A program made the position numbers and the translations under genes. The notes below the pieces were generated by a model that made no database searches, had not been told where the DNA came from, and saw only the letters and a list, made by a program, of their open reading frames with translations. Shown piece by piece: positions 21,812 to 61,215 of a DNA stretch of 64,000 bases. How positions within the stretch are numbered: the first letter of the stretch is position 1; every line of letters begins with the position of its first letter. Source of the stretch: Pseudomonadota bacterium. Its GTDB lineage: Bacteria > Desulfobacterota > Binatia > UBA9968. Location: NCBI GenBank assembly GCA_021324155.1, contig JAJPJQ010000031.1, positions 1 through 64,000 on the forward strand. The letters are read 5' to 3'.

Positions 21812-21813
21812 AA

Positions 21814-37053: not shown

Positions 37054-37074
37054 GAACGGGCAAGGAGATTCGCC

Positions 37075-44990: not shown

Positions 44991-46088
44991 ATGAAAATTT
45001 CACACCTCATCGCTTTGCTTGCCGTATGCCTGATCGTCTCATCGCCGGCCTCGGTATCTGCCCAGTCGTGGGAGAAAGTTGTCGAAGCGGCGAAAAAAGA
45101 AGGCAAGGCCGTGGTCTCGATTCCCGCCAGCGCCGAGCTCAGAAAACTGATCGAAGAAGGATTCAAGAAGCGCCACAGCGGCATCGATTTGGAGCTCGTT
45201 CCGGCGCGCGGCACTTCGATCACCCGGCGCATCGTCGAAGAAACGAAGGCCGGCGTGCGCAATTTCGACATTCATATCGGCGGCACGAATTCGATTATCA
45301 ACGGCCTGCTCGACGAAGGCGTGCTCGAGCCGGTCGAGCCTAATTTCATTCTTCCCGAGGTGAAAGATCCGAAGAACTGGTGGGGCGGCCACATGTGGGT
45401 CGATCGCGCGAAAAAATACGTCTACAACTTCCAGGCCTATTTGACCGAGAGCACGTGGCGGAACGAGACGCTCGCGAAGGCGGAGGAATTCAAAACCCTC
45501 GACGATCTCTTGAATCCCAAGTGGAAAAACAGGATCGGGATTCTCGACCCGCGGACGCCGGGAGCGGGCGACTCGAACTGGGCGTTCCTCTGGCAGGTCA
45601 AAGGCGAGGAATATCTCAAAAAGCTCGCGGCGCAGAATCTTTCGCTCGGCCGCGATCAGCGGGTGCTCGGCGAAAGCCTCGCCAAGGGGAAAATCGCGAT
45701 CGTGCTTGGCCTCACCTATTATTCGCTGCTCCCCTTCATCAACGCGGGCCTGCCGGTGAAACCGATTCAGCACCTCAAAGAGGGCACGTTCGGCACCGGC
45801 GGCAGCGGCAATCTCTGCTTGGTGAAGAATCTGCCGCATCCGAACGCCACCAAAGTCTTCGTCAACTGGCTTCTGACGAAGGAAGGCCAGGAAGTCACCA
45901 CGAAGGCGATGGGGCAGGCGACGCGGCGCCTCGACGTCGACACGAAGTGGCTGAACGAAATCGGCGTGCTGCCGGCCAAAGATCACCTCTCCGTCAAAGA
46001 CTATCTCGAAGTGGAAAATCAGTCCGAAGAGAAGCTCGAAAAAGTACGCGAGCCTGCGATCAAGTTAGCGCATAAACTGTTCAATTAA
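44991..46088 (+). CDS. orphan family-1 substrate-binding protein, island paralogue A
   Basis: 365 residues, signal peptide ending ASVSA-QSWE. It belongs to a local paralogue set with the genes at 48801 and 51451. All three share SIPAxxELRK near the N-terminus, a K-D-P-K-x-W-W-G-G-H block, PHPNATKVFVNWLL and ATRRLDVDT. No permease or ATPase is nearby in this operon. It begins the rightward island, 11 bases before a UbiD gene. It may deliver the acid to a shared importer or act as a sensor component. Confidence 0.88.
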   Translation: MKISHLIALLAVCLIVSSPASVSAQSWEKVVEAAKKEGKAVVSIPASAELRKLIEEGFKKRHSGIDLELVPARGTSITRRIVEETKAGVRNFDIHIGGTNSIINGLLDEGVLEPVEPNFILPEVKDPKNWWGGHMWVDRAKKYVYNFQAYLTESTWRNETLAKAEEFKTLDDLLNPKWKNRIGILDPRTPGAGDSNWAFLWQVKGEEYLKKLAAQNLSLGRDQRVLGESLAKGKIAIVLGLTYYSLLPFINAGLPVKPIQHLKEGTFGTGGSGNLCLVKNLPHPNATKVFVNWLLTKEGQEVTTKAMGQATRRLDVDTKWLNEIGVLPAKDHLSVKDYLEVENQSEEKLEKVREPAIKLAHKLFN

Positions 46089-46099
46089 AGCGCGAATTC

Positions 46100-47692
46100 A
46101 TGTCTCAAAGTTATTACGGCGATCTGCGCGATTTCCTCGCCGCGCTCGAAAAGCGCGGCAAGCTCCACCGCTGGACCCGGCCGGTCAATAAAGACAGCGA
46201 GCTGATGCCGCTGATGCGCCTGCAATACCGCGGACGCAGCGACGACGCGCGCCAGGTATTTCTGTACGAGAACGTCGTCGACGGAAAGCAAAACCGCTAT
46301 GCGATGAAGGTCGTGACCGGCATGTACGGCTCGTCGCGCACGATCGTCGGCCTCGGCATGGGCTGCGACGACCCGCAGGGAATTTACGAGAAGTGGCACC
46401 ACGCGGTCACGCATCCCATCGCTCCGGTCAAGGTCGACCGCGCGCCGGTGCATGAAGAGGTTCACGCCGGCGCCGAGCTTGAGAAGACCGGCCTTACGAT
46501 GCTGCCGGCGCCGGTCGAAGAGCCCGGCTTCAGCGGCGCGATCCGCGTCACTTCACCGATCCTTACGCAGGATCCGCAGACGGGCATGCGCAACGTCGGC
46601 ATGTATAGCGGCCACTTTTTTGGGCCGGATAAATTTCTCGCCGGCATCGCGCGCGTGCACGACGCAATGCTCTACCATTTCCCCGTCGCGCGGCGGCGCA
46701 AAGAGCCGCTGCCCGTCGCGGTCTGTCTCGGCGCCCTGCCGGACATCGCCTACGTCGCCGCCGCGAATATTCCCTACGGCGTCGACGAACTCTCCGTCGC
46801 CGGCGCGATCCGCGGCCGGCCAGTCGAGCTGGTGCGCTGCAAGACGATTCCGCTCGACGTGCCGGCGGAGGCGGAGATCATCATCGAAGGCGAGCTTTCA
46901 ACCGAAGAGGCGGTCCGCGAACGCGCCTTCAGCGACTATCCGGGCTATCTTATGGCCGAGCACGCGCTCAAGCAGGTGGTCAAGGTGAAAGCGATCACCT
47001 GCCGCAAAGGCGCCCTGTTTCCCGCGATCCTCGTCGGCCTGCCGCCGAGCGAGTCGAACGGCATCTCGCGCACGTGTCGCGAGATGATGCTCGATAATTA
47101 TCTGAAATACGGCTGCGGCATTCCGGAAGTCCTCGAAGTGAGCTGCCCCGAGATGGGCGGCGGCTGGAACTGGTGGGTGATCCGGATGAAGAAGACTCAC
47201 CCGAGCAAGCCGCAGCAGGTGCTGCACGCCGCGGCGAGCATGGGCACGACGAACAAAGTCATCATCGTCGTCGACGAAGACATCGATCCCAAAGATCCCG
47301 AGATGGTGATGTGGGCCATGAGCTTCGCGATGCAGCCGCATCGCGACGTGCAGATCACCACTGGCAGGTCTCCCCTGCTCGATCCTTCGGCGCATCCACT
47401 CATGACCAAGCCCGAGGACCGCCACTTTCCCCCACCGATCGGCTGCTCGGGCATGCTGATCGACGCGACGCGCAAAGGCCCGTACCCGCCCGTCGGCGTG
47501 CCGAAGAAGCGCTTCATGGAGCGCGCGCTGGAGATCTGGCGCGAAGAGCACATGCCGGAATTGGCCTTGAGAACACCCTGGTACGGCTACCCGCTCGGCA
47601 TGTGGACCGAGGAAGACGACGCCGTAGCCGAAGCCGTCGCCGCCGGCGATTATTTCTACGGCAGAGACCACAAAGAGTCCGGGAAAAAATGA
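46100..47692 (+). CDS. UbiD-family protein with altered active site (paralogue 3)
   Basis: 530 residues, longer than the usual 450-490. The overall UbiD pattern is clear (YGVDELSVAGAIRGRPVELV, EIIIEGEL, VDEDIDPKDPEMVMWA). The position of the conserved Arg is Ser170 (NVGMYSGHF in place of N-x-G-x-Y-R). The E-G-P-F-G-E loop has become ERAFSD (E274 and D279 retained as acids, Gly-Pro lost). Its stop overlaps the start of a bicupin gene (ATGA). It may be a decarboxylase with a different prFMN-maturation requirement, or have lost that chemistry. Confidence 0.85.
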   Translation: MSQSYYGDLRDFLAALEKRGKLHRWTRPVNKDSELMPLMRLQYRGRSDDARQVFLYENVVDGKQNRYAMKVVTGMYGSSRTIVGLGMGCDDPQGIYEKWHHAVTHPIAPVKVDRAPVHEEVHAGAELEKTGLTMLPAPVEEPGFSGAIRVTSPILTQDPQTGMRNVGMYSGHFFGPDKFLAGIARVHDAMLYHFPVARRRKEPLPVAVCLGALPDIAYVAAANIPYGVDELSVAGAIRGRPVELVRCKTIPLDVPAEAEIIIEGELSTEEAVRERAFSDYPGYLMAEHALKQVVKVKAITCRKGALFPAILVGLPPSESNGISRTCREMMLDNYLKYGCGIPEVLEVSCPEMGGGWNWWVIRMKKTHPSKPQQVLHAAASMGTTNKVIIVVDEDIDPKDPEMVMWAMSFAMQPHRDVQITTGRSPLLDPSAHPLMTKPEDRHFPPPIGCSGMLIDATRKGPYPPVGVPKKRFMERALEIWREEHMPELALRTPWYGYPLGMWTEEDDAVAEAVAAGDYFYGRDHKESGKK

Positions 47693-48804
47693 AGCGCGAC
47701 ACCAGCTACGAAGCCTGGATGAAAAAGCAGGGCGTTCCGATCGTCGAGACGCACGGCGTCGAGGACGTGGGCGAGCTACCGCTGAAGCCGTGGGCGCGCA
47801 CCGGCGGGCGCGGCGCGTTCATCCAGCTGAAAGGCATGGAAGGCTTCACCGGCATGTACGTCAGCGAGATCCCGCCCGCAGGCGCGCTCGCGCCCGAGAA
47901 GCACCTCTACGAAGAATTGATTTATGTGCTCCAGGGCGCCGGCTCTACGGAGATATGGAGCGCGGACGACGGCACATCCAAGCTCCACTTCGAGTGGCAG
48001 CAGGGAAGCCTCTTCGCGGTGCCGCTCAATACTTGGCACAGGCTCTACAACGGCAGCCGCGGGCCGGCGCTCCTGCTCTCGGTCACGAGCGCGCCGATCA
48101 TGATCGACCTGCTGCATGACGAAGACTTCGTCTTCGGCTGCGACTATCGCTTCGATCAGCGCTACGACGGCCGCGCGGACTACTTCACCGTCTCGGACAA
48201 GCGCGAGGAGCGCGGCGGGTTCATCTCGTGGGAGACGAATTTCATCGCTGACGCGCGCAGTGCGCTCGTGGATCCGTCCGAGGCGAAGGGCGCGGGCGTG
48301 CGCATCACGTCCTTCGATATGGGCGGCAGCACGCTCGTCGGCCACATCGCCGAGTGGCCGGTCGGCCGCTATCACAAGGCGCACTTCCACCAGGGTGGCG
48401 CGATCCTTCTAATACTGCGCTCACAGGGCTACACGCTCATGTGGCCGCAGGAGGCGGGCGAGCGGCCGTACAAGAACGGCCACAGTAAGGAAGTCGTGCG
48501 CGTCGACTGGCGCGAAGGCAGCGTGCTGAGTCCGCCGACCGGCTGGTTCCACCAGCACTTCAACACCGGCGCCGAGCAGGCGCGCCAGCTCGCGTTCCGC
48601 TACAGCGGCCAGTCGGGCAAATATCTCTTCGGCATCGGCAAGGCGCTCAACCGCGAAGGCGTGCGCACCAACACGCGCCAAGGCGGCACGCTGCTCGAAT
48701 ACGAGGATGAAGACCCGCAGATCCGGCGCGACTACGAAGCCGCGCTCAAAAAAACCGGCGTCGCGATGGAGATGCCGCCGCTGACCTACAGCAACCGATC
48801 ATGA
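47689..48804 (+). CDS. bicupin protein, island paralogue A
   Basis: 371 residues with two cupin barrels. The N-terminal barrel has H72, E75/E76 (EKHLYEELIYVLQG) and H117. The C-terminal barrel has H229, H232 and H234 (YHKAHFHQGG) and H288/H290 (WFHQHFNTG), a likely Fe or Mn site. The tail signature EYEDEDPQIRRDYEAAL recurs in the paralogues at 53641 and 57151. Gentisate/1-hydroxy-2-naphthoate ring-cleaving dioxygenases are bicupins of similar length, so ring cleavage is possible but not shown. It is translationally coupled to UbiD paralogue 3 and to the next SBP. Confidence 0.82.
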   Translation: MKRDTSYEAWMKKQGVPIVETHGVEDVGELPLKPWARTGGRGAFIQLKGMEGFTGMYVSEIPPAGALAPEKHLYEELIYVLQGAGSTEIWSADDGTSKLHFEWQQGSLFAVPLNTWHRLYNGSRGPALLLSVTSAPIMIDLLHDEDFVFGCDYRFDQRYDGRADYFTVSDKREERGGFISWETNFIADARSALVDPSEAKGAGVRITSFDMGGSTLVGHIAEWPVGRYHKAHFHQGGAILLILRSQGYTLMWPQEAGERPYKNGHSKEVVRVDWREGSVLSPPTGWFHQHFNTGAEQARQLAFRYSGQSGKYLFGIGKALNREGVRTNTRQGGTLLEYEDEDPQIRRDYEAALKKTGVAMEMPPLTYSNRS

Positions 48805-49907
48805 CACAACGTATCTTATTTCTCGCGGCTATTTTATTTCTGATCGCGCTCACGCCATCGCTTGCGCCGGCGCAGGCCAAGCCCGGCGAATGGGAGCGCA
48901 TCGTCGAGCTCGGGAAGAAAGAAGGCAAGGTCGTGGTATCGATCCCGGCGACGAGCGAGCTGCGCCAGGCGGTCGAGGACGGGTTAAGAAAACGCTACGG
49001 CATCAACGTGGAATCGGTGCCGGCGCGCGGCACGACGGTCACGCGCCGCATCGTCGACGAGACCAAAGCGGGCATCCAGTATTTCGACATTCACATCGGC
49101 GGCAGCGAATCGATCGTGACCGGGCTCCTCGCCGAGAATGTTCTCGAGCCCGTCGAGCCGTACTTCATCCTCCCCCAAGTAAAAGATCCGAAGCAATGGT
49201 GGGGCGGCCACATCTGGATCGACAACGCGAAGAAATATATTTACGCGTTCCAGGCGTACCAGACCGAGAGCCTCTGGCACAATACCGAACTCGTCAAAGC
49301 CGAAGAGATCCGCTCGTTCGACGATCTGCTGCAGCCCAAATGGCAGGGAAAGATCGCCATCCTCGATCCGCGCACGCCGGGCTCCGGCGCGTCGATGTGG
49401 TCGTATCTGCGCGCCGCGAAAGGCGAGGAGTATCTGAAGAAGCTCGTCGCGCAGAAGCTTCAGGTGGGCCGCGATCAGCGCCTGCTGGCGGAAAATCTCG
49501 CGAAGGGGAAAAGCTCCGTCGTGATCGGCGTCACCTATTATTCCCTCGCGCCGTTCATCAAGGCGGGCCTGCCGGTGAAGCCGCTGCCGAATCCGCGCGA
49601 GGGCGTTTATGTGAGCGGCGGCAGCGGCCATTTGACGATCATCAAGAACCCGCCGCATCCGAACGCGACGAAAGTCTTCGTCAACTGGCTGCTCAGCAAG
49701 GAGGGCCAGGAGGCATTTTCGCAGGCGATCGGCCAGGCGACGCGCCGCCTCGACGTCGACACCCGCGGGCTCAAAGCCTACGGCATGCTCGCGGCGAAGG
49801 ACGGCCTCACGCTCGATCAATATTATAAGCTCGAGAATCAGTCGGAGAAAAAAGTCTACGAGATGCGCGACCCCGGCGCGGATCTGGCAAGGAAATTATT
49901 AGATTGA
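48801..49907 (+). CDS. orphan family-1 substrate-binding protein, island paralogue B
   Basis: 368 residues with a signal peptide (FLIALTPSLAPAQA). Closely similar along its whole length to the SBPs at 44991 and 51451 (VVSIPATSELRQ, KQWWGGHIWIDNAKKYIYAF, PHPNATKVFVNWLLSKEGQ). Its ATG overlaps the bicupin stop. A heptad inverted repeat follows, which probably marks a transcript boundary. Confidence 0.88.
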   Translation: MTQRILFLAAILFLIALTPSLAPAQAKPGEWERIVELGKKEGKVVVSIPATSELRQAVEDGLRKRYGINVESVPARGTTVTRRIVDETKAGIQYFDIHIGGSESIVTGLLAENVLEPVEPYFILPQVKDPKQWWGGHIWIDNAKKYIYAFQAYQTESLWHNTELVKAEEIRSFDDLLQPKWQGKIAILDPRTPGSGASMWSYLRAAKGEEYLKKLVAQKLQVGRDQRLLAENLAKGKSSVVIGVTYYSLAPFIKAGLPVKPLPNPREGVYVSGGSGHLTIIKNPPHPNATKVFVNWLLSKEGQEAFSQAIGQATRRLDVDTRGLKAYGMLAAKDGLTLDQYYKLENQSEKKVYEMRDPGADLARKLLD

Positions 49908-49910
49908 AAA

Positions 49911-49985
49911 ACGTTTCAGGTTTCACGTTTCAAGTTTAAAGATCAAACCTGCCTCCTTGAAACCTGAGCCAGAAACTTGAAACGT
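49911..49985. repeat. heptad-periodic inverted repeat, GTTTCAR type, copy 3
   Basis: The left arm is ACGTTTCA GGTTTCA CGTTTCA AGTTT. The right arm is TTGAAAC CTGAGCC AGAAACT TGAAACGT. The outermost ACGTTTCA/TGAAACGT are perfect complements. It separates the paralogue B SBP gene from UbiD paralogue 4. Confidence 0.8.
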
Positions 49986-50038
49986 GCGCGTCGCAGATAG
50001 GCAGTTCGCGCCGCATCACAGAAAGAATGAGGGCAAAA

Positions 50039-51454
50039 ATGAGTTATACCGATTTGCGCCAATGGATCGATGAAGTGGACAAGCTCGGCGAGCTCTCGCG
50101 CATCGACGGCGCCGATTGGGATCTGGAGATCGGCGCGCTCACGGAGTTCGCCGGCCGCGGGCGCGGAGCCTCGGCGATCCTCTTCGACCACATCAAGGAT
50201 TATCCCGCCGGCCGGCGCGTGCTCGTCGGCATGATCGAGTCGCTGAAGCGCGCCGCGCTCACGACCAATCTGCCGACCGATATCACGCGCGACGGGTTCA
50301 TCGCCGCATGGAAGCAGCGCCTCAATAGTCCCACGCTCATCCCGCCGCGCTTCGTCGACCGCGGGCCGGTAATGGAAAACGTCTTCACCGGCAACAAGAT
50401 CGACGTGCTCTCGCTGCCGGTGCCGCGCTGGCACGACCGCGATGGCGGACGCTACATCGGCACCGCGCACGTCGTGATCACGCAGGACCCCGACGAGGGC
50501 TGGATCAACATGGGAGTCTACCGCGTCATGGTCCACGACCGCGACCGCCTCGCGCTCTACATCTCGCCCGGCAAGCACGCGCGCATTCACCGGCAAAAAA
50601 ACTTCGACCGCGGCAAGCCGATGAAGGTCGTGATCGCCTTCGGCGAAGACCCGCTGCTCTTTCTGCTCGCCTCGCGCGCGCTTCCCTGGGGATCGCAAGA
50701 GCTCGACTACGCCGGCGGTATCAAAGGCGCGCCCATCGACGTGATCCGCGGCGAATTCACCGGCCTTCCGATTCCCGCGACAGCGGAAATCGCCATCGAA
50801 GGCGAAGTCTCGCCGGAAGAGATGAAAGAAGAAGGCCCGTTCGGCGAATGGACCGGCTATTACGCCAGCGGCAGCCGCAACGAGCCCGTGCTGAAGATTC
50901 AATCCTTCATGCACCGCAACGACCCGATCATCACCGGCGCGCCGCCGTTCCGCCCTCAGGCCGGCGCCGATAACTGCCCGGCGCTGCTGCGCGCGGCGTT
51001 TATCATGGACTCGTTGGAAAAGGCGGGTGTCCCGGACGTGCGCGACGTCGCCTGCCACCAGAACCGCTTCTTCACGGCGGTTTCGATCAAACAACGCTAT
51101 CCCGGCCACGCAAAGCAGGCCGCGACAATCGCGAGCCAGTGCCAGACCGGCGCCTATCTCAGCCGCTACACGATCGTCGTCGACGACGACATCGACGTCT
51201 CCGACATCAACGACGTGCTCTGGGCGATCTGCACACGCGTCGATCCGGAGAAATCGATCGACATCGTCCGGCGCTGCTGGAGCGGCCCGCTCGACCCGAT
51301 CATCCCGCGCGCGGAGAAAGGCTTCAGCTCGCGCGCGCTGATCGACGCCTGCCGGCCGTTCGAGTGGATTAAGGATTTTCCGCCGGTTTCCGGCGCGAGC
51401 AAAGAGCTGAAAGAAAAAGTGCTGGAGAAATTCGCCGCATCGCTCAAAAAATGA
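50039..51454 (+). CDS. UbiD-family prenylated-FMN decarboxylase (paralogue 4)
   Basis: 471 residues from the ATG at 50039, chosen because GAGGG lies five bases upstream and MSYTDLRQWI is the usual start; an ATG at 50027 is possible. Canonical active site: R162 (NMGVYRV), E265 and E270 (EGPFGEWTGYY). It is followed by an SBP gene whose ATG overlaps its stop. Of the three island UbiDs it is the only one with the full catalytic set. Confidence 0.93.
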   Translation: MSYTDLRQWIDEVDKLGELSRIDGADWDLEIGALTEFAGRGRGASAILFDHIKDYPAGRRVLVGMIESLKRAALTTNLPTDITRDGFIAAWKQRLNSPTLIPPRFVDRGPVMENVFTGNKIDVLSLPVPRWHDRDGGRYIGTAHVVITQDPDEGWINMGVYRVMVHDRDRLALYISPGKHARIHRQKNFDRGKPMKVVIAFGEDPLLFLLASRALPWGSQELDYAGGIKGAPIDVIRGEFTGLPIPATAEIAIEGEVSPEEMKEEGPFGEWTGYYASGSRNEPVLKIQSFMHRNDPIITGAPPFRPQAGADNCPALLRAAFIMDSLEKAGVPDVRDVACHQNRFFTAVSIKQRYPGHAKQAATIASQCQTGAYLSRYTIVVDDDIDVSDINDVLWAICTRVDPEKSIDIVRRCWSGPLDPIIPRAEKGFSSRALIDACRPFEWIKDFPPVSGASKELKEKVLEKFAASLKK

Positions 51455-52566: not shown

Positions 52567-52609
52567 TTATTTCGGCCGAAGAATACTCATCGCAAAGAAT
52601 CACGCGTTG

Positions 52610-53617
52610 ATGATAGCCAAATTCTCCGTGAACTGCGCTCGTATTGTTTTACTTCTCGTTTCCTTTTTCGCTTTCCTCGGGCTGTCCTATGCCGCCGATG
52701 CCGCGCGCGGCGAGCCCATCAAGATCGGCTACGCCTCGATCAGCGGCAACCGCATCTCGTTCTGGGCCGCCCAGGATGCCGGCTTCTTCGCCCGCCATGG
52801 CCTCGCGCCGGAGCTGGTGTTCATCGCCACATCCGCTCAGGGAATACCGGCGCTGATCGCCGGCGACCTCGCGATGTTCGTAGGATCGCCCGAGACCGCC
52901 GCGCAGGCGGCTGTCCGCGGCGTGGATCTCGTCATCGTCGCGAGCAGCGATCCGACGCAGTATAAGCTGGTCGTCCAGCCGGGCATCAAGAACGTCGCGG
53001 AACTCAGAGGAAAGAAAATCGGCATCGATCGCATCGGCGGATCGAGCTACTACGCCACGCGCCGCATTTTCGAAAAGCTCGGGCTCAAGCCCGAGGAAGT
53101 GGAATTCATGCAGGTCGCCGGCGGCGGCGTGCAGCGCGCCGCAGCGTTTCGCTCCGGCGTGCTGAGCGGCGTAGTGACGACCGTCGAGCGGCTCGACCGG
53201 TCGAATATCCCCTACCACGTGATGGCCGACGCGATAGCCATGGGCATTCGCGTGATCGGCAGCTCGGTCATCGTCACGCGGAGCTTCAGGGATCGCAACC
53301 CCCACCTGATCCTCAGCTTCGTCCGGGCGTTGAGCGAGGCTGCGCATTGGACGAAAAATCCCAAGAACCGCGAGGCGGTGCGGCGCGTGTTCGCGCATTT
53401 TCTCCGGACCGACGATCCGTCGATACTGGACTTGAACTATCGCTTATACGTCGACTCGCAGGTGCTGTTCCCGCACACGAACATCGAAGACCTGCGCTCG
53501 AATCTCTCGGACCTCGGAGACAGCAACCCCAAGCTCCGCGCGTTGAATTTATCTGAGCTCGTCGACAATAGTTTCGTGCAGCGCGTCGAGGCGGAAAGCC
53601 GCGCGACGCGCCGATAA
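52610..53617 (+). CDS. NitT/TauT-type substrate-binding protein
   Basis: 335 residues from the ATG at 52610 (a TTG codon directly precedes it). The signal peptide is IVLLLVSFFAFLGLSYA. The opening KIGYASISGNRISFWAAQDAGFFARHG and LRGKKIGIDRIGGSSYYATRRI are NMT1/TauA-like, a different fold family from the three preceding SBPs. It lies between SBP paralogue C and a bicupin, all co-directional. No permease nearby. Confidence 0.87.
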   Translation: MIAKFSVNCARIVLLLVSFFAFLGLSYAADAARGEPIKIGYASISGNRISFWAAQDAGFFARHGLAPELVFIATSAQGIPALIAGDLAMFVGSPETAAQAAVRGVDLVIVASSDPTQYKLVVQPGIKNVAELRGKKIGIDRIGGSSYYATRRIFEKLGLKPEEVEFMQVAGGGVQRAAAFRSGVLSGVVTTVERLDRSNIPYHVMADAIAMGIRVIGSSVIVTRSFRDRNPHLILSFVRALSEAAHWTKNPKNREAVRRVFAHFLRTDDPSILDLNYRLYVDSQVLFPHTNIEDLRSNLSDLGDSNPKLRALNLSELVDNSFVQRVEAESRATRR

Positions 53618-53640
53618 ACTTTTGAACTGGGAGTGACGCA

Positions 53641-54732
53641 ATGGCGAAGGCGCCGAAAACATTCGAGGAATGGTACGTTAAAAGCGCGTACCAGAATTTC
53701 GTCCGGCAGGAAGGCGCGCCGCTCTACGAGGGCAGTGCGCTGGAAGATCTCGGCAGTTTGAAGCTCGCCGACTGGGAGCGGCGCGGCGGCAAGGTTGCCT
53801 ATACGCGTCTCGGCGATCAGGAATTCTATAACCTCCAGATCGTCGAGATTCCGCCCGGGGGCGAGCTCAAGCCCGAGCGGCACATGTACGACTCCGTCAT
53901 GTACGTCATGAAGGGCCGCGGCGCGACGACGATCTGGCAGCCGGGCGAGCCGCGCACCACCGTCGAATGGGAGGAAGGCGCGCTGCTCGCGATCCCGCTA
54001 AACGCGTGGCACCAGGAGTTCAACAGCGCCGGCAGCGAGCCGTGCCGGATTCTCTTCGGCACCAACATGGCCCACGTGATCAACCTCTACGGCAATCTCG
54101 ACTTCGTCTTCAATAATCCGTTCGTCTTCAGCGACCGCTACAGCCACTCGATGCAGAATTTTTTCTCCGACAAGGGCAGGCAATGGAACCTGCGGCTTTA
54201 CGAGACGAATTTCATCCCCGACATCCGCACGTTCCAGCTCGATCCCTATCCCGAGCGCGGCAACCGAACATCGATCATGCGCCTCTCGATGTCCAACACC
54301 TCGGTCGGCATGCATGTGATGGGTGTCTCGCCGGGCACCTATGTCACCGCGCACCGCCACGAAGCGCGCGCGCACGTGATCGTCATCGCCGGCGAAGGCT
54401 ACGAGCTCATGTTCATGCCCGACGAGGAAAAGCGGCGCAAAGTACCGACGGTTCCCTACGCCGTCGTCGCGCCGCGCCACAACGAATACCATCAGCATTT
54501 CAACACCGGCAAAGGCGAGTACCGCATGCTCGCGTTTCGCGGCAGCGGGCTGCGCCAGGGCGGCGGCCGGTCCTTCGATCCCGCGCGCACGGCCCAGGAT
54601 AAAAATCCGTACGCCGAGTCCTTCAAGATCGCGTACGAAAAGGAAGACCCCGCGATCCGCGAGGAATATTATAAAGAGCTGGAGAAAAACGGCATCGATT
54701 TACGCCTGAAGCCTCTCGACCAGAGAGGATAA
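53641..54732 (+). CDS. bicupin protein, island paralogue B
   Basis: 363 residues, two cupin barrels. N-terminal ligand candidates are H81 (ERHMYDSVMYV, with Asp84 where the paralogues have Glu) and H124. C-terminal candidates are H238/H240 (YVTAHRHEARAH) and H284/H286 (YHQHFNTG). The tail is a weaker version of the shared signature (YEKEDPAIREEYYKEL). A good ribosome site (GGGAG) precedes it. It lies 15 bases before UbiD paralogue 5 and repeats the UbiD-bicupin pairing seen at 46100-48804 in reversed gene order. Confidence 0.82.
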   Translation: MAKAPKTFEEWYVKSAYQNFVRQEGAPLYEGSALEDLGSLKLADWERRGGKVAYTRLGDQEFYNLQIVEIPPGGELKPERHMYDSVMYVMKGRGATTIWQPGEPRTTVEWEEGALLAIPLNAWHQEFNSAGSEPCRILFGTNMAHVINLYGNLDFVFNNPFVFSDRYSHSMQNFFSDKGRQWNLRLYETNFIPDIRTFQLDPYPERGNRTSIMRLSMSNTSVGMHVMGVSPGTYVTAHRHEARAHVIVIAGEGYELMFMPDEEKRRKVPTVPYAVVAPRHNEYHQHFNTGKGEYRMLAFRGSGLRQGGGRSFDPARTAQDKNPYAESFKIAYEKEDPAIREEYYKELEKNGIDLRLKPLDQRG

Positions 54733-54747
54733 GCGAAGGAAGCGAAC

Positions 54748-56211
54748 ATGAGCACACCGGCGAAGGATCTCAGAACTTTTCTCGCGCAGGTCAAAGAGCG
54801 TTTTCCGGATGAGCTGGTGCACGTGCGCCGCGAGGTCGATCTGAAATTCGAGATCTCGGCCGTGCTCGTGAAGCTCGACCGCGCGCACAAATTTCCCATA
54901 GTGATCTTCGACAATCTCGCGACCGCCGCCGGCGGCCGCTCGGCTTTCCCGCTGCTCTCGAATCTGTTCGCAAGCCGCAATCTCTGCGCGCTGTCGCTCG
55001 ATTCTACCGTAGAGAAGGTCGGCCTGGATTATGACCGCCGCACGCAGAACGCCAAGACGCCGGTCGTCGTCGGACGCGACCAAGCGCCGGTCAAGCAGGT
55101 CGTGAAAAAAGGCGCCGAAGTCAATCTGTTCGATTTTCCCGTGCCGCTGCCCTACCACATGGAGGGCGGAAGGACGATTCTAGGTTCCGTCATCACGACG
55201 GTCGACAATCACGAAGGCACGATCTACAACTGCGCCTACCAGACGCTGCGTTTGCTGGAGCCGAGAAAAGCGACTGTCGGCCTCGGCGAGCAGACCGGCA
55301 ATTGGGAGCGCTACCGTGAGCGCATCGCCGAGACGGGCGAAGGGTTGCCGGTCGTCGCGTGGATCGGCCATCACCCCGCCGCCTGCATGGGCTCGCTCAC
55401 GCGCGTGTCGCTCGACATCGACGAGTACGGTGCGATCGGCGGCGCGCTCGGCGAGCCGTTGCGCGTAACCCCGTCGGAAACCTGGGGCGATAAATTTCTC
55501 GTGCCGGCCGATGCCGAGATCGTCATCGAGGGCGTGATCCCGCCGAAGGAGCGCGGGCGCCACGGTCTCCGGGCCGACTTCGCGCGCTACTATTCGCCCG
55601 AGACGCTGCGGCCGGTGATCGACGTCAAGGCGATCACGTACCGCCGCGACGCGATCTATCACGACATCCATCTCGGCGGCCGCGATCAGGACCATCTCGG
55701 CGGCATTCCGCTCGAAGGCTCGATCTACCGCGCGGTCAAGCAGGCAGTGCCGACGGTAAAAAATGTCCATCTCCCCTCCTCCGGCTGCAGCCGCTTTCAC
55801 GCATACGTGCAGATAAAGAAAACCGGCGCGGGCCAGGGACGCGAAGCGATCGTCGCGGCGCTCTCGGTCGATCGCCGGTTAAAGCATGTCGTCGTTGTCG
55901 ATGAAGACATCAACGTCTTCGACGACGCGGAAGTCTTATGGGCCGTGGCGACGCGGAGCCGCTGGGACCGCGATATCCTCGTGCTGCCGAACATGGCCTC
56001 GACGACGCGCGACCCGACTGCCTACGCGTCGGGCTCGTCGGAGCTCGCCTATCATTCGTATACCGTCGCGAAAGGCGGCATCGACGCGACGATGCCGGCG
56101 CCGCCCGAGCCGTTCGAGATCAGGATCAAAGTGCCGGACGAAGCGATGCGAAAGGCCGAGCTGAAGGATTATATCGGCGACACGCTCGCGAAGATTCCGC
56201 TCGACGCTTAA
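54748..56211 (+). CDS. UbiD-family protein with altered active site (paralogue 5)
   Basis: 487 residues. UbiD fold features are present (DAEIVIEGVIPPKERG, VVVDEDINVFDDAEVLWAVATR). Ungapped alignment of the 20 residues after the IEG strand places H272 and D277 where canonical enzymes have Glu and Glu/Asp; the E-G-P-F-G-E loop reads H-G-L-R-A-D. The conserved Arg is replaced by Gln165 or Thr166 (NCAYQTLR). It is followed 10 bases later by a tiny zinc-ribbon gene. It may act as part of a multi-subunit (de)carboxylase or have a new function. Confidence 0.86.
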   Translation: MSTPAKDLRTFLAQVKERFPDELVHVRREVDLKFEISAVLVKLDRAHKFPIVIFDNLATAAGGRSAFPLLSNLFASRNLCALSLDSTVEKVGLDYDRRTQNAKTPVVVGRDQAPVKQVVKKGAEVNLFDFPVPLPYHMEGGRTILGSVITTVDNHEGTIYNCAYQTLRLLEPRKATVGLGEQTGNWERYRERIAETGEGLPVVAWIGHHPAACMGSLTRVSLDIDEYGAIGGALGEPLRVTPSETWGDKFLVPADAEIVIEGVIPPKERGRHGLRADFARYYSPETLRPVIDVKAITYRRDAIYHDIHLGGRDQDHLGGIPLEGSIYRAVKQAVPTVKNVHLPSSGCSRFHAYVQIKKTGAGQGREAIVAALSVDRRLKHVVVVDEDINVFDDAEVLWAVATRSRWDRDILVLPNMASTTRDPTAYASGSSELAYHSYTVAKGGIDATMPAPPEPFEIRIKVPDEAMRKAELKDYIGDTLAKIPLDA

Positions 56212-56221
56212 AGGAGAAGGT

Positions 56222-56392
56222 ATGGCCAGCTCGATGCGTGTGGTCTGTCCCGGTTGCGATCAGGAATTTCTCGTCTCGCCGCAATTCGAGCGGCTGAAGA
56301 TCGACGCGAAATGCCCGTTTTGCGACAAAGAGTTTCCCGTTGCCGAGGCCAAAAAAATCGTCCGGCCGAGCCCGATGCTTTTAGTAAAATAG
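56222..56392 (+). CDS. 56-residue zinc-ribbon protein next to UbiD
   Basis: Read directly: ATG at 56222, TAG at 56390, with AGGAG upstream. Cysteines at 9, 12, 31 and 34 form CPGC...CPFC, a rubredoxin/zinc-ribbon-like site. The C-terminus is basic. It begins 10 bases after UbiD paralogue 5 and ends the rightward island operon. In three-gene phenolic-acid decarboxylases (BsdBCD/VdcBCD), a small Cys-rich subunit accompanies the UbiD-like protein. This gene may play that part, although its sequence is only generally similar. Confidence 0.75.
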   Translation: MASSMRVVCPGCDQEFLVSPQFERLKIDAKCPFCDKEFPVAEAKKIVRPSPMLLVK

Positions 56393-56410
56393 ATTCCGCG
56401 CGGTACTTTC

Positions 56411-57127
56411 CTACAGAGAAATCTGATTCATCGCGAACGCGAGGCCGGCGCGATAGGCGCGGTCGATCACCAGCGTCTTTCTGAGCGCGGCGATCACGGT
56501 GTCGCGCTCGCGCTCGGTTTTTACGTGGCGCGAGAGCACCTTGTCGAGCATGAGCGCGTGCTCCTGGTCCGCCTCGACGTGGACATTGCGATTCTTGAGC
56601 GATTCCTTCGCGAGCCCCAGGTCGGCGATCAGCCGGTCGCGCGAGCGGGAGGAAAAGCCGCCGGTTGCGATGATCGCGTTGGAATTGATCGCCTCGACCA
56701 TCGAGACTGCGCAAAACGATTCGAGCCAGCTCTGTTTCCCGAGATGCAGCCATGCCTCCAGCGCGGCGGCGACTAACGGGTGCGGCTCGGAGCGCGCCAT
56801 CTCCTCCGCGCTGACGCCGAGAAGCGCCGCTTCCTTCGTCGTCAGCGTGAAGTGATCCTCGCCGCCCGCGCGCGGATCGCCGATCAGCTCGTCCTGCTCG
56901 TGAAGCCAGATCTCGCGCTTGACGTCGAGCGGTGCCTGTCCCATGGCGAGCGCCCAGCAATCGCGCCGGTTGCGCACGAAGTGCGCCTGGTTGATGGTCC
57001 AAACCTTCGCCCGCGCCGGCGTGAAGCGCGTCTCGAAGAGATATTGCACCTCCGGCGTTGAATGATGTTCGTTGGCCATGCGCCGGATCGCGTTGGAGAG
57101 CTCGCCGCTGTCGATCGCCTGTCCCAT
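56411..57127 (-). CDS. heme-oxygenase-like diiron (TenA/PqqC-fold) protein
   Basis: 238 residues from the ATG at 57127, chosen for GGAGG seven bases upstream; an ATG at 57154 overlapping the bicupin stop is the alternative. All-helical; candidate metal ligands are a Glu in YLFETRF, His/Glu in IWLHEQDE, Glu in SMVEAIN and the HVEADQEH cluster near the C-terminus. These match the iron-containing redox enzymes of the PqqC/HDO superfamily. Last gene of the leftward part of the island, converging with the zinc-ribbon gene. Possibly an oxygenase or oxidase; substrate unknown. Confidence 0.8.
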   Translation of the reverse strand: MGQAIDSGELSNAIRRMANEHHSTPEVQYLFETRFTPARAKVWTINQAHFVRNRRDCWALAMGQAPLDVKREIWLHEQDELIGDPRAGGEDHFTLTTKEAALLGVSAEEMARSEPHPLVAAALEAWLHLGKQSWLESFCAVSMVEAINSNAIIATGGFSSRSRDRLIADLGLAKESLKNRNVHVEADQEHALMLDKVLSRHVKTERERDTVIAALRKTLVIDRAYRAGLAFAMNQISL

Positions 57128-57150
57128 AAACGCGCCTCCGCTGACTTCAT

Positions 57151-58215
57151 TCATTTTCGATTCATGCCCGACGGGATGCCGCGCTCGGCCAGCTGCGCCT
57201 CGAAATCGCGGCGGATCGCCGGGTCCTCGTCCTCATACTCGATCTGCGTGCCGCCCTCTTTCACGCTGCGGTCGATGATGTCCTTGAAGACTTTGTATTT
57301 TTTGCTGTTCCAGCGGATTGCGAGATAGCGCGTCTGCGTCCGGGATAAATTGAAATGTTGGTGGAACCACTGGTCCGGCGGCGAGATGATGCTGTTGGGC
57401 TTCCAATCGCAACGCCGCGGCGGCGTGCCCTCGGGCCACAGCAGCGAATAGCCGTCGCCCTCGAGGATGATAATCTGCGCCCCGGCGGCGTGGCGGTGCG
57501 CCTTCTTGTAGCGCCCGACGGCGAACTGCGAGATATGGGCGACCAGCGTGCTGCAGCCGATCTCGAAAACAGTGGTGCGATTGCCGACGCCGCGCCCTTC
57601 GCTCGCTATGACGTTCAAATCGTGGACGTTCGCGACGAAGTTGACGTCCCAGAAGCGCTCCTGGTGGATCGTCCCGTTGCCGGAAAAGTAGTCTTCCTCG
57701 CCGTCGAAGCGGTCGCGAAAGAGATGCGGGCAGTTGAAGATGAACTCGTTGTCGTTGAAGAGGTTCATCATCAGCGGCGCGGTGGTGAAAGCGATGAAGC
57801 GCGCCGGGCGGTCGCCGCGGCCGTTGTAAAGGCGCGACCAGGCGTTGAGCGGGATCGCGAAGAGACTCCCGCGCTGCCATTCGAAAGTCCGCCGCGCGCC
57901 GCCCTCCTGCCAAACCTCCGTCGCGCCGTGGCCGTCGAGGACGAACACGAGCTCCTCGTAGAGATGTCGCTCGGGCTCGAGCTTGCCGCCGGGCGGGATC
58001 TCGCAGATATACGCGTCGTCGGTGTCGCCAGTGCCTTCGAGGTTGATGATCGCGCCTTTCCCGCCTTTCCGCGCCCAGGGCGCGAGCGCGACCTCGTTCA
58101 CGTCGGAGATGAAGAACGCGCGCGTGACAGGCACGCCCTGTTTCTCGACCCAGCGCTCGTACGACGATTTGCCGTCGAGCAGCGCCCCTAGCTTCGCCGT
58201 TTGATCGGCCATCAT
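57151..58215 (-). CDS. bicupin protein, island paralogue C
   Basis: 354 residues from the ATG at 58215 (ATG at 58212 and GTG at 58218 are also possible). The N-terminal barrel keeps a His and two Glu (ERHLYEELVFVLDG), but the third ligand is Ser (LNAWSRLYN, paralogues have His). The C-terminal barrel keeps the HRH pair (KAHRHAAG) and WFHQHFN. The tail signature EYEDEDPAIRRDFEAQL is nearly identical to paralogue A. It lies directly downstream of the hydratase-aldolase gene with a one-base overlap, an arrangement recalling the PhdI-PhdJ ring-cleavage pair. Confidence 0.82.
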   Translation of the reverse strand: MMADQTAKLGALLDGKSSYERWVEKQGVPVTRAFFISDVNEVALAPWARKGGKGAIINLEGTGDTDDAYICEIPPGGKLEPERHLYEELVFVLDGHGATEVWQEGGARRTFEWQRGSLFAIPLNAWSRLYNGRGDRPARFIAFTTAPLMMNLFNDNEFIFNCPHLFRDRFDGEEDYFSGNGTIHQERFWDVNFVANVHDLNVIASEGRGVGNRTTVFEIGCSTLVAHISQFAVGRYKKAHRHAAGAQIIILEGDGYSLLWPEGTPPRRCDWKPNSIISPPDQWFHQHFNLSRTQTRYLAIRWNSKKYKVFKDIIDRSVKEGGTQIEYEDEDPAIRRDFEAQLAERGIPSGMNRK

Positions 58216-59192
58216 CACCTGGCCGCGGACGCCTTGGCCGGCGCGCTTTGCAATGGATATTTCCGGCAGAGCGCCTTCCAGTTCTCCGCCATCTTCTTAC
58301 TGTGATCGATGATCTCCTGCGGCACGTGTCGAAACGGCGGACGGAGCGGCCCCGCGTAGCAATAGCCGGTCTCGTTGATGACGAGCTTGTGCGAGTTCTC
58401 GCGCCAGAAAAGATCGCCCGGGCGGCCGGGCCCGCGGTATGCCTCGCTCATGTCGATGGCGATCTGCTTCGCGGTCTCCCAATCGCCGGCGAAGCAGGCG
58501 TCACGCAGGCGGATGAGCGGCGACGGTCCCATCCACGCGCAAATCGACCAGCAGCCTGACGCGCCGAACGTAATATAAGGATAGAGTTGGAGCTGCATGA
58601 CGAAGACCGCGATTTTATCCTTCACGATGTTCATCAGTTTGTAGAAGTCGAGCGGCGTGCGATGGCTGTCCTTCATGAAGACGATGTTCGGCCGCGTGAC
58701 GAGCTTCTTGAAAGCGTCGACCGGGATCGTCACGCGGTGGATCGGCGGATTATGGTAGATCCCGATACCCATCCTGGGAAACGCGTCGGCGAGGTCGAGG
58801 TAGAACTGCGCGGCGTTGTCCGCGGTCGACGGATAATAAAACGGCACGCCGCAGAGCACGCCGTCGGCCCCCGCCTCCTGGGCGAAGCGCACCTCGCGCA
58901 TGGTGTCGCGCGTATTAAGCGTAGTGCAGCCGATGAGCACCGGCACGCGCTTTTTCACCGCCGCGATCGTCGCCTCGGTAAGCTTCTTCTTCTCCTCCCA
59001 GAGGAGCGTATGGCATTCGCCGAAGCTCCCCATTGTGGCGATCGCGTCGACGCCGTCGCGGATGATCTTGTCCACAGCCGTCGCGCACGCGTCCGCGTCA
59101 ATCGTGTCCTCGGCCTCCGGGTCGCCGCCGTTTTTCGTCGTGAACGCGGGCATCATCGCGACGACGCCCCTCAAATCCTTCGCTGTAAGCAT
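58215..59192 (-). CDS. DHDPS/NAL-family aldolase, NahE/PhdJ-like hydratase-aldolase
   Basis: 325 residues. The Schiff-base lysine is K174 (FMKDSHRTP) and the catalytic Tyr is Y146 (IYHNPP). The N-terminal MLTAKDLRGVVAMMPAFTT and GSFGECHTLLWEEKKKLT closely resemble trans-o-hydroxybenzylidenepyruvate and carboxybenzalpyruvate hydratase-aldolases, which release pyruvate and an aromatic aldehyde. AGGAG lies upstream. It is followed by a bicupin and preceded by two SBP genes on the same strand. The aldolase fold is certain; the substrate subclass is inferred. Confidence 0.85.
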   Translation of the reverse strand: MLTAKDLRGVVAMMPAFTTKNGGDPEAEDTIDADACATAVDKIIRDGVDAIATMGSFGECHTLLWEEKKKLTEATIAAVKKRVPVLIGCTTLNTRDTMREVRFAQEAGADGVLCGVPFYYPSTADNAAQFYLDLADAFPRMGIGIYHNPPIHRVTIPVDAFKKLVTRPNIVFMKDSHRTPLDFYKLMNIVKDKIAVFVMQLQLYPYITFGASGCWSICAWMGPSPLIRLRDACFAGDWETAKQIAIDMSEAYRGPGRPGDLFWRENSHKLVINETGYCYAGPLRPPFRHVPQEIIDHSKKMAENWKALCRKYPLQSAPAKASAAR

Positions 59193-59210
59193 GCATGTCT
59201 CCTTTCGCCG

Positions 59211-60164
59211 TTACTTCATCGCTTTGATCAGGGAAAAATCGAACAGCCGGTCGCGCGCGATTTTCTTCTCCGCACCGATCGTCTTGAGCTCGAATTCGAG
59301 CACGCGGTCCTGGAAATCCGCTGAGATCGTCCCGTCGGAGACGAACGCGGGCGTCGTCTCGTCATAGACGCGCGCCGCCTTATCGGCGGCCAGCTCGAGG
59401 TATTTCGCCATGATCCGCACGGTGCCCTCGCGGTTCGTTTTGAAATACTTCAGCCCCTTCAGCGTTGCCCGGTGGAGTTTCTCGGCGGCGCTTCTGTGAT
59501 TCTGCAGAAATCCCGCCGTCGTCGATACGCCGCCCTGGAGCGCCCCGACCTCGTTGATGAAGTCGGCCAGCGGATAGAAGCCGAATTCCTCAGCCTGAAA
59601 GCTCGCCGGCGGCGTCAGCGGCGCGCCGTCGATCGACCCGGCCTGGAGCGCGCGGAAGACGACGTCGGACGTGCCGATATAAATGATGCTCAGGTCCTTG
59701 CGCCAGTCGACGCCGTTTTTCTCCAGGACGACTTTCAGCAGCCGGTCGTTGGTGCTGCCGGGCGTCGAGCTGCCGATTTTCGCGCCCTTCAGATCGGCAA
59801 ACGACCGGAAGCGCTTCTTGACGTAAAGTTTGAACGTCGGCTTGTCGTTGAAGACCATCGTCACCTTGAGCGGCGCGCCGCCGAGCACCGCCGCCAGCAC
59901 CGTCGGGCCGACGATCTGGCTCGCGTCGACGGCGCCGGCGATCATAGCCTGGATTCCCGCGCCGGTGCGGATGCGGGTAATCTCGATGCGGATGCCCTCG
60001 TCGCGGTAAAAGCCGAGATCGTCGGCGATAAGATAAGGCAGCGAGCTGGTCGAGTAGCCCGGCAGATGGAGCCGTACGACCGGGCCGTTGTCGGCCGCGC
60101 GCACCGTCGCCGCCGCGAGCAACAAAATCGCAGCGCAAAGCCGAAAAACCGAAGTGGGGCTCAC
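59211..60164 (-). CDS. NitT/TauT-type substrate-binding protein
   Basis: 317 residues from a GTG. The signal peptide (LCAAILLLAAATVRA) is followed by LHLPGYSTSSLPYLIADDLGFYRDEGI, typical of NMT1/TauA receptors, and DLKGAKIGSSTPGSTNDRLL. It lies between another SBP (11-base gap) and the hydratase-aldolase (18-base gap). No permease nearby. Confidence 0.88.
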   Translation of the reverse strand: MSPTSVFRLCAAILLLAAATVRAADNGPVVRLHLPGYSTSSLPYLIADDLGFYRDEGIRIEITRIRTGAGIQAMIAGAVDASQIVGPTVLAAVLGGAPLKVTMVFNDKPTFKLYVKKRFRSFADLKGAKIGSSTPGSTNDRLLKVVLEKNGVDWRKDLSIIYIGTSDVVFRALQAGSIDGAPLTPPASFQAEEFGFYPLADFINEVGALQGGVSTTAGFLQNHRSAAEKLHRATLKGLKYFKTNREGTVRIMAKYLELAADKAARVYDETTPAFVSDGTISADFQDRVLEFELKTIGAEKKIARDRLFDFSLIKAMK

Positions 60165-60175
60165 GAGGCGGAATC

Positions 60176-61159
60176 CTACCTTTTCGCTTCGTACTCTTTA
60201 ATCACCGCCCTGACAACCGAGAAGTCGCTCACGTCGGCGGGAGCGACGTTGCCGCTCAGTCTACCGGCGGCCTTCGCCTCCTCGATGGAGGCCATCATCG
60301 CCTTGTCGCTTGCGGTGCCGTCGCGGCTCAGAATCTTGACCGCCACATCGTACGTATCGGTCGCGGTGCGCTGGTCCATCTTGAGCCAGCGCGCGAAGAC
60401 ATCGATCGTCTCCTGCCGCCGCGTGCGCACGAACTGCAGCGCCTCGTATACGGCGCGCAGCATCCGCCTCACCTCGTCGGGGCTTTCCTTGAGCTTCTTG
60501 ACCGTCGCACCGAGGCCGGTGAGCGGCAGATCCAGATAATCGGCAGAGTCGAGCAGCAGGCGAAAGCCTTCGTTACGCATGATGACGCTCATCGGCGGAT
60601 TGATCATCGCAGCGTCGAGCTGCTTCGCCCGCATCTGCTGCGCGCGAAAACCCTCGTTGCCGACGTTGATCATCTTCACATCTTTTTCCGGATTGATCCC
60701 GACGGCCTTCAGCACCTCCGCCGTTACCGTGTGCTGGGTGCCGCCGAACGAGCTGATGCCGATGACTTTGCCTTTAAGATCCGCCACCGTCCGGATCTCC
60801 GGCTGGACGACGAGGGAGAACATCTGCTTCTCCGCCGTGGAAAAAATCACGCGCGCGGGAAGACCCCTGACCCCGGCGCGCACGAGCGAGCCGAAGTGCG
60901 TATCGTAGTCGATATCGCCCGAGATGAGCGCCGGGATCGCCGCGTCGGCGCGCATTAAAACCGGCTGGACCGAGAAGCCGTGTTTCTTATAGAAGCCTTT
61001 TTCAAGCGCGACCTGAAACGGCAGGAAGCTGAAGTTCAGTCCCGCCATGCCGATGATCGTGTTCTTTTGCGCGCGGCATGGCGGCGCGAAGGTCGCCGAG
61101 AAAAGCAGCAGCAGGAGACAGAATATTATTGCTTTGTCGGCCGATTTTCGGTTGTCCAT
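60176..61159 (-). CDS. NitT/TauT-type substrate-binding protein
   Basis: 327 residues from the ATG at 61159, chosen for AGGAG eight bases upstream and a normal signal peptide (IIFCLLLLLFSATFAPPCRA); the frame is open further but has no signal there. Motifs LNFSFLPFQVALEKGFYKKHGF and DLKGKVIGISSFGGTQHTVTAEVL place it in the NMT1/TauA group. First gene of the leftward half of the island. Confidence 0.88.
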   Translation of the reverse strand: MDNRKSADKAIIFCLLLLLFSATFAPPCRAQKNTIIGMAGLNFSFLPFQVALEKGFYKKHGFSVQPVLMRADAAIPALISGDIDYDTHFGSLVRAGVRGLPARVIFSTAEKQMFSLVVQPEIRTVADLKGKVIGISSFGGTQHTVTAEVLKAVGINPEKDVKMINVGNEGFRAQQMRAKQLDAAMINPPMSVIMRNEGFRLLLDSADYLDLPLTGLGATVKKLKESPDEVRRMLRAVYEALQFVRTRRQETIDVFARWLKMDQRTATDTYDVAVKILSRDGTASDKAMMASIEEAKAAGRLSGNVAPADVSDFSVVRAVIKEYEAKR

Positions 61160-61215
61160 CCCGAAGGCTCCTCCCGCGCTCGCTTGATCGTCCAATGATC
61201 CGGCGAAACCGGACG

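Follow-up and report, generated by a model that had tools for sequence, protein, structure and literature searches.

Among the described systems closest to the locus reported here are the gentisate and salicylate 1,2-dioxygenases, whose working iron is said to be located in the N-terminal cupin, and the UbiD-family (de)carboxylases, which use prenylated flavin mononucleotide (prFMN). The literature that we consulted treats a Glu-Arg-Glu/Asp network as the signature of UbiD catalysis. In the excerpts available from one report, the RXnEX4(E/D) motif is termed highly conserved in UbiD enzymes, and the Fdc1 mutants R173A and R173K had low residual activity and no detected activity, respectively (PMC5818171). 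According to excerpts of another, VdcD is a Zn subunit that bears two CXXC motifs and a proline-rich tail and contacts the Glu-Arg-Glu (ERE) loops of VdcC (PMC8379154). Here, we analyzed a window of 64,000 nucleotides (i.e., the whole stretch of DNA; positions 1 to 64,000 of contig JAJPJQ010000031.1, assembly GCA_021324155.1, a Pseudomonadota bacterium placed by GTDB in the Binatia, UBA9968). In it, three UbiD genes, three bicupin genes, and six solute-binding protein (SBP) genes lie in two tight convergent runs that meet at 56.4 kb. This gene composition is confirmed and for the most part conserved; two of the UbiD proteins (UbiD1 and UbiD3) depart from the signature at the place of its Arg. 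With a probability of about 0.5, we read the plus-strand run as two conserved catabolic modules acting on carboxylated aromatic or related unsaturated compounds by the mechanism proposed below. The plus-strand genes (44991-56392) are, in order:

44991..46088, plus strand: SBP1, extracytoplasmic SBP of the SBP_bac_1/8/11 type (PF01547/PF13416/PF13531)
46100..47692, plus strand: UbiD1, with UbiD_N, UbiD, and UbiD_C domains; Ser170 at the place of the catalytic Arg
47689..48804, plus strand: BC1, bicupin (Cupin_1/2), candidate ring-cleaving dioxygenase
48801..49907, plus strand: SBP2, solute-binding protein by Pfam, 61% identical to SBP1
50027..51454, plus strand: UbiD2, with UbiD Pfam domains and canonical R-E-E residues
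51451..52566, plus strand: SBP3, solute-binding protein by Pfam
52607..53617, plus strand: SBP4, NMT1-type solute-binding protein (PF09084)
53641..54732, plus strand: BC2, bicupin by Pfam
54748..56211, plus strand: UbiD3, UbiD fold by Pfam; Thr166, His272, and Asp277 at the R, E, and E positions
56222..56392, plus strand: zinc-ribbon protein of 56 amino acids (aa) with two CxxC motifs, a possible small partner of UbiD3

The listed genes of both runs are open reading frames (ORFs) with Pfam family matches, which bears out the gene counts, tight packing, and 4-base overlaps of the original prediction; the UbiD2 gene also stands, but its first in-frame ATG is at 50027, not at 50039 as had been proposed. 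Intergenic gaps range from -4 to +40 b, with a sole exception of 119 b upstream of UbiD2, and the 4-b overlaps are real. Mutual identity is 56 to 63% among SBP1, SBP2, and SBP3 (SBP_bac_1/8/11 type), which look like an older tandem family from their sequences, and 25 to 29% among SBP4, SBP5, and SBP6 (NMT1 type). The identities among UbiD1 to UbiD3 (26 to 28%) and among BC1 to BC3 (33 to 45%) led us to reject recent local duplication of these genes; since they are low, the two sets of enzymes are ancient paralogues that were brought together.

UbiD1, UbiD2, and UbiD3 all match UbiD_N, UbiD, and UbiD_C above the Pfam cut-offs and thus belong to the UbiD superfamily. UbiD2 carries the canonical motif; its closest solved relative is 7pda (384 bits), and its best NCBIfam match is the phenylphosphate carboxylase beta model (TIGR02724; 298.1 bits, under the cut-off of 468.95). 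UbiD1 does not carry the motif: Ser stands in place of Arg in all 22 measurable of the 23 UbiD1-type genes. In an alignment that took 51 of 61 picked UbiDs (one of the dropped rows being of this Ser, or S, type), Ser occupied the position in 16/16 UbiD1 proteins, versus Arg in the 36 other UbiDs, which had been picked by profile score. Asp replaces the last Glu in the same 16 proteins, and the first Glu is variable. No change occurs at N165 or E230 in these 16 proteins or elsewhere among the 52 aligned UbiDs, which suggests, given the roles generally ascribed to these residues, that cofactor binding persists in UbiD1. A predicted structure of UbiD1 (AlphaFold2 [AF2]; mean confidence [pLDDT], 87.5) matched E. 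coli UbiD and HmfF best in Foldseek, and also VdcC.

UbiD3 departs from the motif differently, with Thr five residues past the invariant Asn in 7/7 genomes (the T type) and, in five aligned copies, His at the place of the first Glu; an alternative alignment with a gap puts R168 at the Arg column and leaves the His in place. A relative from Natrinema (38% identical) has R-E-E. Near residue 184, four aligned orthologues read GEGTHNW or GEGSHNW, versus GEQTGNW in the window, where the conserved His is Gly. Ratios of nonsynonymous to synonymous substitution (dN/dS), calculated against the most complete relative (G004, see below), were 0.04 to 0.20 for all ten plus-strand genes (UbiD1, 0.11; UbiD3, 0.09; BC2, 0.044). 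These low values indicate that UbiD1 and UbiD3 are maintained and not decaying, and a pseudogene status for either was rejected.

Departures from the motif are rare in the host genome, where R, E/D, and E/D occur in 34 of 38 measurable UbiDs (extraction succeeded for 39 of 41 places). The remaining four are UbiD1, UbiD3, a K-Q-E protein (Lys-Gln-Glu at the catalytic positions; G000:C15:28971, L155), and an R-E-A protein. We also surveyed 118 unique UbiDs from 138 sources (137 loci plus the window; identical copies merged); the loci had been chosen for bicupins or UbiDs, and some genomes were represented by more than one. UbiDs without a nearby bicupin were canonical in 39 of 40 measurable cases, and those within 4 kb of one had R-E-E in 23 of 30. 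Of the 37 measurable UbiDs directly beside a bicupin (400 b, same strand), 17 were canonical, 16 were of the S type, and 4 were of the T type; since the S and T proteins represent two clades in preselected loci, they do not amount to 20 independent events. Other variants exist: in two UbiD1-like proteins (L027:3522-5169 and L029:4603-6316), encoded 1.2 to 1.9 kb from a bicupin, Asn takes the place of the Arg (NAGMYN and NVGMYN). Very dense UbiD clusters occur at L176 and L178 (G004:C14:50001-68000), the latter packing six UbiD-like matches into about 14 kb, including an S-type (NVGLYS) and an N-type (NVGTYN) variant at the Arg position.

The association of UbiD1 with a bicupin recurs in relatives. 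With both groups defined strictly (for UbiD1, an E value of 1e-150 or better) and weaker relatives uncounted, UbiD1-type genes were found in 17 of the 148 genomes of the class, all among the 25 genomes of the family. A bicupin adjoins UbiD1 on the same strand in 16 of these 17 genomes, spanning 11 genera; it is of the BC1 type in 15 and of the BC2 type in one (G021). The bicupin precedes UbiD1 in G013, and in the 17th genome (G008) the contig ends after UbiD1. UbiDs and bicupins are therefore adjacent elsewhere and not merely scattered, as the original prediction expected of a system. SBP1-3-type SBPs flank the UbiD1-bicupin pair in most of the longer contigs, and an SBP1 relative precedes UbiD1 in several genomes. 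The entire plus-strand set is present in Deltaproteobacteria RIFCSPLOWO2_12_FULL_60_19 (G004; L005/L110) at 72 to 90% identity, with one extra UbiD inserted and without the minus-strand set. UbiD3 occurs in 7 of the 148 class genomes, all in the 25-genome family, and the zinc ribbon follows it in 7/7 (in G014 on a separate contig fragment); an SBP4 relative (59 to 65%) precedes UbiD3 in G007, G014, and G017. Bicupin-UbiD neighbors recur with other UbiD subfamilies, including in metagenome-assembled genomes (MAGs) of Chloroflexi. One of these, Centralia_MAG_115 (L018, L022, and L036), has 35 UbiD matches and several bicupin-UbiD neighbors and may represent another lineage that shares this habit.

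The bicupins have the two-domain fold of gentisate/salicylate 1,2-dioxygenase, a fold common to oxalate decarboxylases and seed globulins. The BC1 model (AF2 pLDDT, 92.5) was compared with 998 aligned chains by VIA, and salicylate/gentisate 1,2-dioxygenases ranked at the top (Z = 20.2 to 21.2), led by 2phd (Z = 21.2; root mean square deviation [rmsd], 3.2; 256 aligned) and 3bu7 (Z = 21.1; rmsd, 3.7; 268 aligned). In an alignment that took 66 of 70 picked sequences, the C-terminal histidines H232, H288, and H290 are present in 67/67 bicupins and H234 in 64/67; the candidate N-terminal ligands vary more. In a cultured Phyllobacterium, genes within 9 kb of a 38% bicupin homologue encode the alpha subunit of a ring-hydroxylating dioxygenase, an oxygenase ferredoxin, class II aldolases, a member of the RraA family, and an SBP. 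The structural ranking and this aromatic-type gene set favor ring cleavage by the bicupins without proving it. One bicupin of the host genome (G000:C20:139237-140267, L168) is split into two adjacent ORFs beside a gene of the haem-oxygenase-like (HO) type.

Building on the observed gene content, synteny, selection, folds, and residue changes, we infer a catabolic role for the locus, together with the metal, cofactor occupancy, substrates, step order, and transport partner, as follows. Module A would consist of SBP1-UbiD1-BC1-SBP2, to which relatives often add SBPs and another UbiD, and module B of SBP4-BC2-UbiD3-zinc ribbon, with UbiD3-zinc ribbon as its fixed core. Several periplasmic receptors with differing ligands would deliver to one or a few ATP-binding cassette (ABC) permeases. 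A prFMN-dependent UbiD step would add or remove a carboxyl group, UbiD2 by normal chemistry and UbiD1 and UbiD3 through an altered active site with Ser or Thr for the catalytic Arg and Asp as the acid. The bicupin would then open the ring with O2 at a metal bound by the C-terminal histidines, and an aldolase would cleave the ring-opened product. The zinc ribbon has a layout of the VdcD type (i.e., two CxxC motifs, CPGC and CPFC, encoded after a UbiD gene), and its C-terminal tail, which contains proline, is conserved in four orthologues. It may act as VdcD does, by analogy of layout alone; sequence searches of NCBIfam and PDB gave no match to VdcD with a query of only 56 aa.

Several observations weigh against this reading. 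UbiD1-type genes lack an adjoining bicupin in 7 of 23 cases (one at a contig end), and S-type genes without a bicupin in the retrieved stretch occur in G004. BC2 adjoins (precedes) UbiD3 in only 4 of 7 genomes. The losses in Fdc1 R173A and R173K raise the possibility that neither UbiD1 nor UbiD3 is a decarboxylase. The BC1 model is also near oxalate decarboxylase (Z = 19.6), followed by MncA and seed globulins (about 19), and Foldseek alone places MncA and vicilins above the dioxygenases (gentisate dioxygenase is 14th), so the structural lead of the latter is modest. The bicupins score 17 to 29 bits against the NCBIfam gentisate and aminosalicylate dioxygenase models (TIGR02272 and NF049978), compared with cut-offs of 442 and 650. 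Elsewhere in the host genome, bicupins lie near a UbiD in 2/21 cases at 3 kb (random, 1.0) and 3/21 at 6 kb (random, 1.8); these statistics set aside the two runs and use 2,000 random sets, part of the NMT1 and permease matches, and estimated lengths for 13 contigs. Substrate, metal, and activity cannot be read from sequence. The idea that each module pairs a receptor with a decarboxylase and/or a cupin therefore holds for UbiD1 and its bicupin, which recur together; it does not extend to the minus-strand set, which has no UbiD, or to the rest of the genome, where pairing is at chance level (3 kb).

The same evidence admits a bolder version, in which UbiD1 and UbiD3 are two new prFMN-using classes of the UbiD fold without the Glu-Arg-Glu network, each co-evolved with a bicupin and catalyzing a non-standard reaction (e.g., a ring activation that hands its product to the dioxygenase). 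We regard this as possible but tentative. Alternatively, UbiD1 and UbiD3 could be non-catalytic or regulatory subunits of a hetero-oligomer in which the canonical UbiD2, or another UbiD, performs the prFMN chemistry. Such a division of labor would suit their purifying selection despite the missing catalytic residues and the presence of an R-E-E UbiD2 in the same run, with phenylphosphate carboxylase beta as its nearest, sub-cut-off model; naphthalene carboxylase is described in an excerpt of PMC12016498 as the product of nine genes, of which four are UbiD-like. However, among the clusters retrieved, a UbiD2 orthologue (82 to 87%) lies near UbiD1 only in G004 and G017, with a 54% relative in G022, and the other UbiD1 clusters, some on short contigs, have more distant UbiDs or none nearby. 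The persistence of N165 and E230 also speaks for cofactor binding in UbiD1 itself, and we consider the subunit explanation unlikely.

The host genome is crowded with members of the same families, which raises the possibility that old paralogues of expanded UbiD, bicupin, SBP, and HO families lie side by side without a joint pathway. Its 4.80 Mb (98% complete) contain 41 UbiD matches, which probably correspond to 40 genes, with one split between two contig ends; 24 bicupins of the present type, one of them broken into two ORFs and weaker cupin matches not being counted; no fewer than 151 NMT1 matches, from the scoring of 150 of 264 candidates; and 80 permease-domain matches. Outside the runs, bicupin-UbiD coupling is absent at gene-neighbor range and weak and one-sided at 6 kb: UbiDs near a bicupin number 2/37 at 3 kb (random, 1.0) and 6/37 at 6 kb (random, 1.9; reached by 22 of 2,000 sets). 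UbiDs lie near one another in 10/37 cases at 3 kb (random, 1.7) and near NMT1 genes in 11/37 at 3 kb (random, 6.5; 88 of 2,000) and 22/37 at 6 kb (random, 10.7). Bicupins lie near NMT1 genes in 8/21 cases at 3 kb (random, 3.7; 26 of 2,000), and proximity of either enzyme to a permease is at chance level. The retrieved loci also hold no close orthologue of the minus-strand set. Random crowding would not, however, be expected to yield UbiD1-bicupin adjacency in 11 genera or a zinc ribbon after UbiD3 in every genome that has it, and we find it improbable that the plus-strand genes share no pathway.

The expansion extends through the lineage (counts per genome across the class are lower bounds). 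The 25 family genomes have 19 to at least 80 UbiD matches each (median, 35; for the highest count, 80 of 126 candidates were scored). All 35 genomes of the order, among the 148 of the class, have bicupins (E values below 1e-117) and at least 16 UbiDs each; the other 113 class genomes include 7 with any UbiD and 14 with weak bicupin matches (best, 1.7e-7). Of 17 named genomes with a bicupin, 16 also have UbiDs, the count being 35 in each of two Chloroflexi MAGs; G160, one of the 17, was identical to family genome G012 in its matches. The host genome has two PF02441 flavoprotein-family matches (216 aa and 403 aa), apparently a putative UbiX and a putative CoaBC, respectively, judging by size, and its 41 UbiD matches appear to share one UbiX.

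The minus-strand run (61162-56411) is apparently a third, private-looking set without a UbiD. From SBP6 to HO, in the direction of transcription, it contains:

60176..61162, minus strand: SBP6, NMT1-type solute-binding protein (PF09084); start uncertain, the ORF extending to 61387
59211..60164, minus strand: SBP5, NMT1-type solute-binding protein (PF09084)
58215..59192, minus strand: aldolase or hydratase-aldolase of the DHDPS superfamily (PF00701)
57151..58218, minus strand: BC3, bicupin (Cupin_2), 45% identical to BC1
56411..57154, minus strand: HO, haem-oxygenase-like iron-containing redox enzyme, diiron-like (PF14518; 31.1 bits, cut-off 28.9)

The aldolase scored below the cut-off of every NCBIfam model listed. 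The loci retrieved contained no close orthologous counterpart of the HO-BC3-aldolase set, and the 13 kb that follow the plus-strand set in G004 (L111) match no window protein. HO is a multicopy family, with 9 matches in the host genome (four of them clustered on one strand at G000:C29:38498-42363) and matches in 14 of the 25 family genomes, the best relative being 44% identical. In the loci scanned, the window included, 5 of 12 unique HO ORFs have a bicupin within 500 b (3 on the same strand), as do 2 of 8 aldolases. HO-type enzymes are often biosynthetic, as are some UbiDs, and the NCBIfam BagN/FevL model (bagremycin/ferroverdin biosynthesis) matches all three UbiDs below its cut-off; nevertheless, with six SBPs pointing to uptake and no carrier protein, synthetase, or exporter among the 15 genes of both runs, specialized-metabolite biosynthesis or detoxification in place of catabolism is very improbable.

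The two runs are flanked by Lnt-like and Nudix genes. Their G+C content (0.60 to 0.63) matches that of the window beyond 6 kb, and the window contains no tRNA and no Rfam match at the gathering score; a mobile or foreign island is therefore unsupported. The label of accessory island in the original prediction is not supported, since relatives in the family share most of the plus-strand genes and the composition is ordinary. The absence of a permease or ATPase, which it also noted, is correct within the runs; the window has two ABC systems upstream, one (28967-31677) with an SBP, a permease, and an ATPase, and the other as follows:

35977..41047, plus strand: ABC transporter with two SBPs, a fused permease, and an ATPase; possible shared uptake core

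The "orphan" receptors thus lie near a permease. The SBPs of the 35977-41047 system are 23 to 31% identical to SBP1 to SBP3, and the receptors of the two runs might share its transporter. Terminator-like sites at 44700-61500 (30, mostly intragenic, versus 17.2 [standard deviation, 4.7] expected from shuffles) and promoter-like sites (5 versus 3.4 expected) were unused as evidence. A second UbiD site (19511-31677) has molybdenum hydroxylase subunits (19511-21811 and 22272-23168), a UbiD (23221-24567, minus strand), a luciferase-like monooxygenase (24622-25605, minus strand), a UbiD (25711-27147, plus strand), and, 3' of the latter, NMT1 receptors and an ABC system. Two divergent resistance-nodulation-division (RND) efflux systems flank a TetR-type regulator at 5792-16962.

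Natural UbiDs that are conserved and selected without the Arg would offer a way to probe prFMN chemistry in its absence or, if the fold has turned into an accessory subunit, to study that change. With its large UbiD set and, in the host genome, one apparent prFMN maker, the lineage would serve as a natural library for aromatic (de)carboxylases, and this richness gives a hint of the way in which an uncultured group lives on aromatic carbon. In the open-licence literature of PubMed Central (PMC), judged by title, we found no description of UbiD-bicupin-SBP clusters or Arg-less UbiDs, nothing linking the Binatota with UbiD, and nothing on 7PDA. Term searches of main texts returned no "decarboxylase," "aromatic," or "cupin" in a Binatota genome paper (PMC8262859) and neither "UbiD" nor "cupin" in a paper on SAR202 (PMC6946804).

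Compared with the UbiD-family prFMN (de)carboxylases (E. coli UbiD, HmfF, VdcC, and Fdc1), the proteins described here share the three UbiD domains and, in UbiD2, the R-E-E residues, whereas UbiD1 and UbiD3 break RXnEX4(E/D) with replacements at the Arg place that are themselves conserved. The resemblance to VdcCD lies in a small two-CxxC protein with a proline-containing tail encoded immediately after a UbiD gene; in contrast, VdcD contacts the loops of the ERE residues, and the partner UbiD3 is missing two of these residues, the Arg and the first Glu. The bicupins share with gentisate/salicylate 1,2-dioxygenase the two-cupin fold, the top structural rank, and, on the side of the present proteins, conserved C-terminal histidines, but they are only 10 to 16% identical to it and have their conserved site in the C-terminal cupin. 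The many receptors with few membrane partners recall the orphan Bug/TctC receptors of Bordetella, Cupriavidus, and Rhodoplanes, as given in an excerpt of PMC5812351; the SBPs of this locus are NMT1 and SBP_bac_1/6/8/11 proteins and not TctC by Pfam, and they belong to another lineage. Lineage-wide growth of a few catabolic families, associated with recalcitrant organic matter, is reported for SAR202 in the available part of PMC6946804, where the families are monooxygenases, enolase-family racemases, and Rieske dioxygenases, unlike the UbiD and bicupin families here. The orphan-receptor and paralogue-expansion aspects of the locus thus have parallels that are already known; what is new is a pair of UbiD subfamilies in which the signature Arg is missing but the tie to a bicupin or zinc-ribbon partner is kept.

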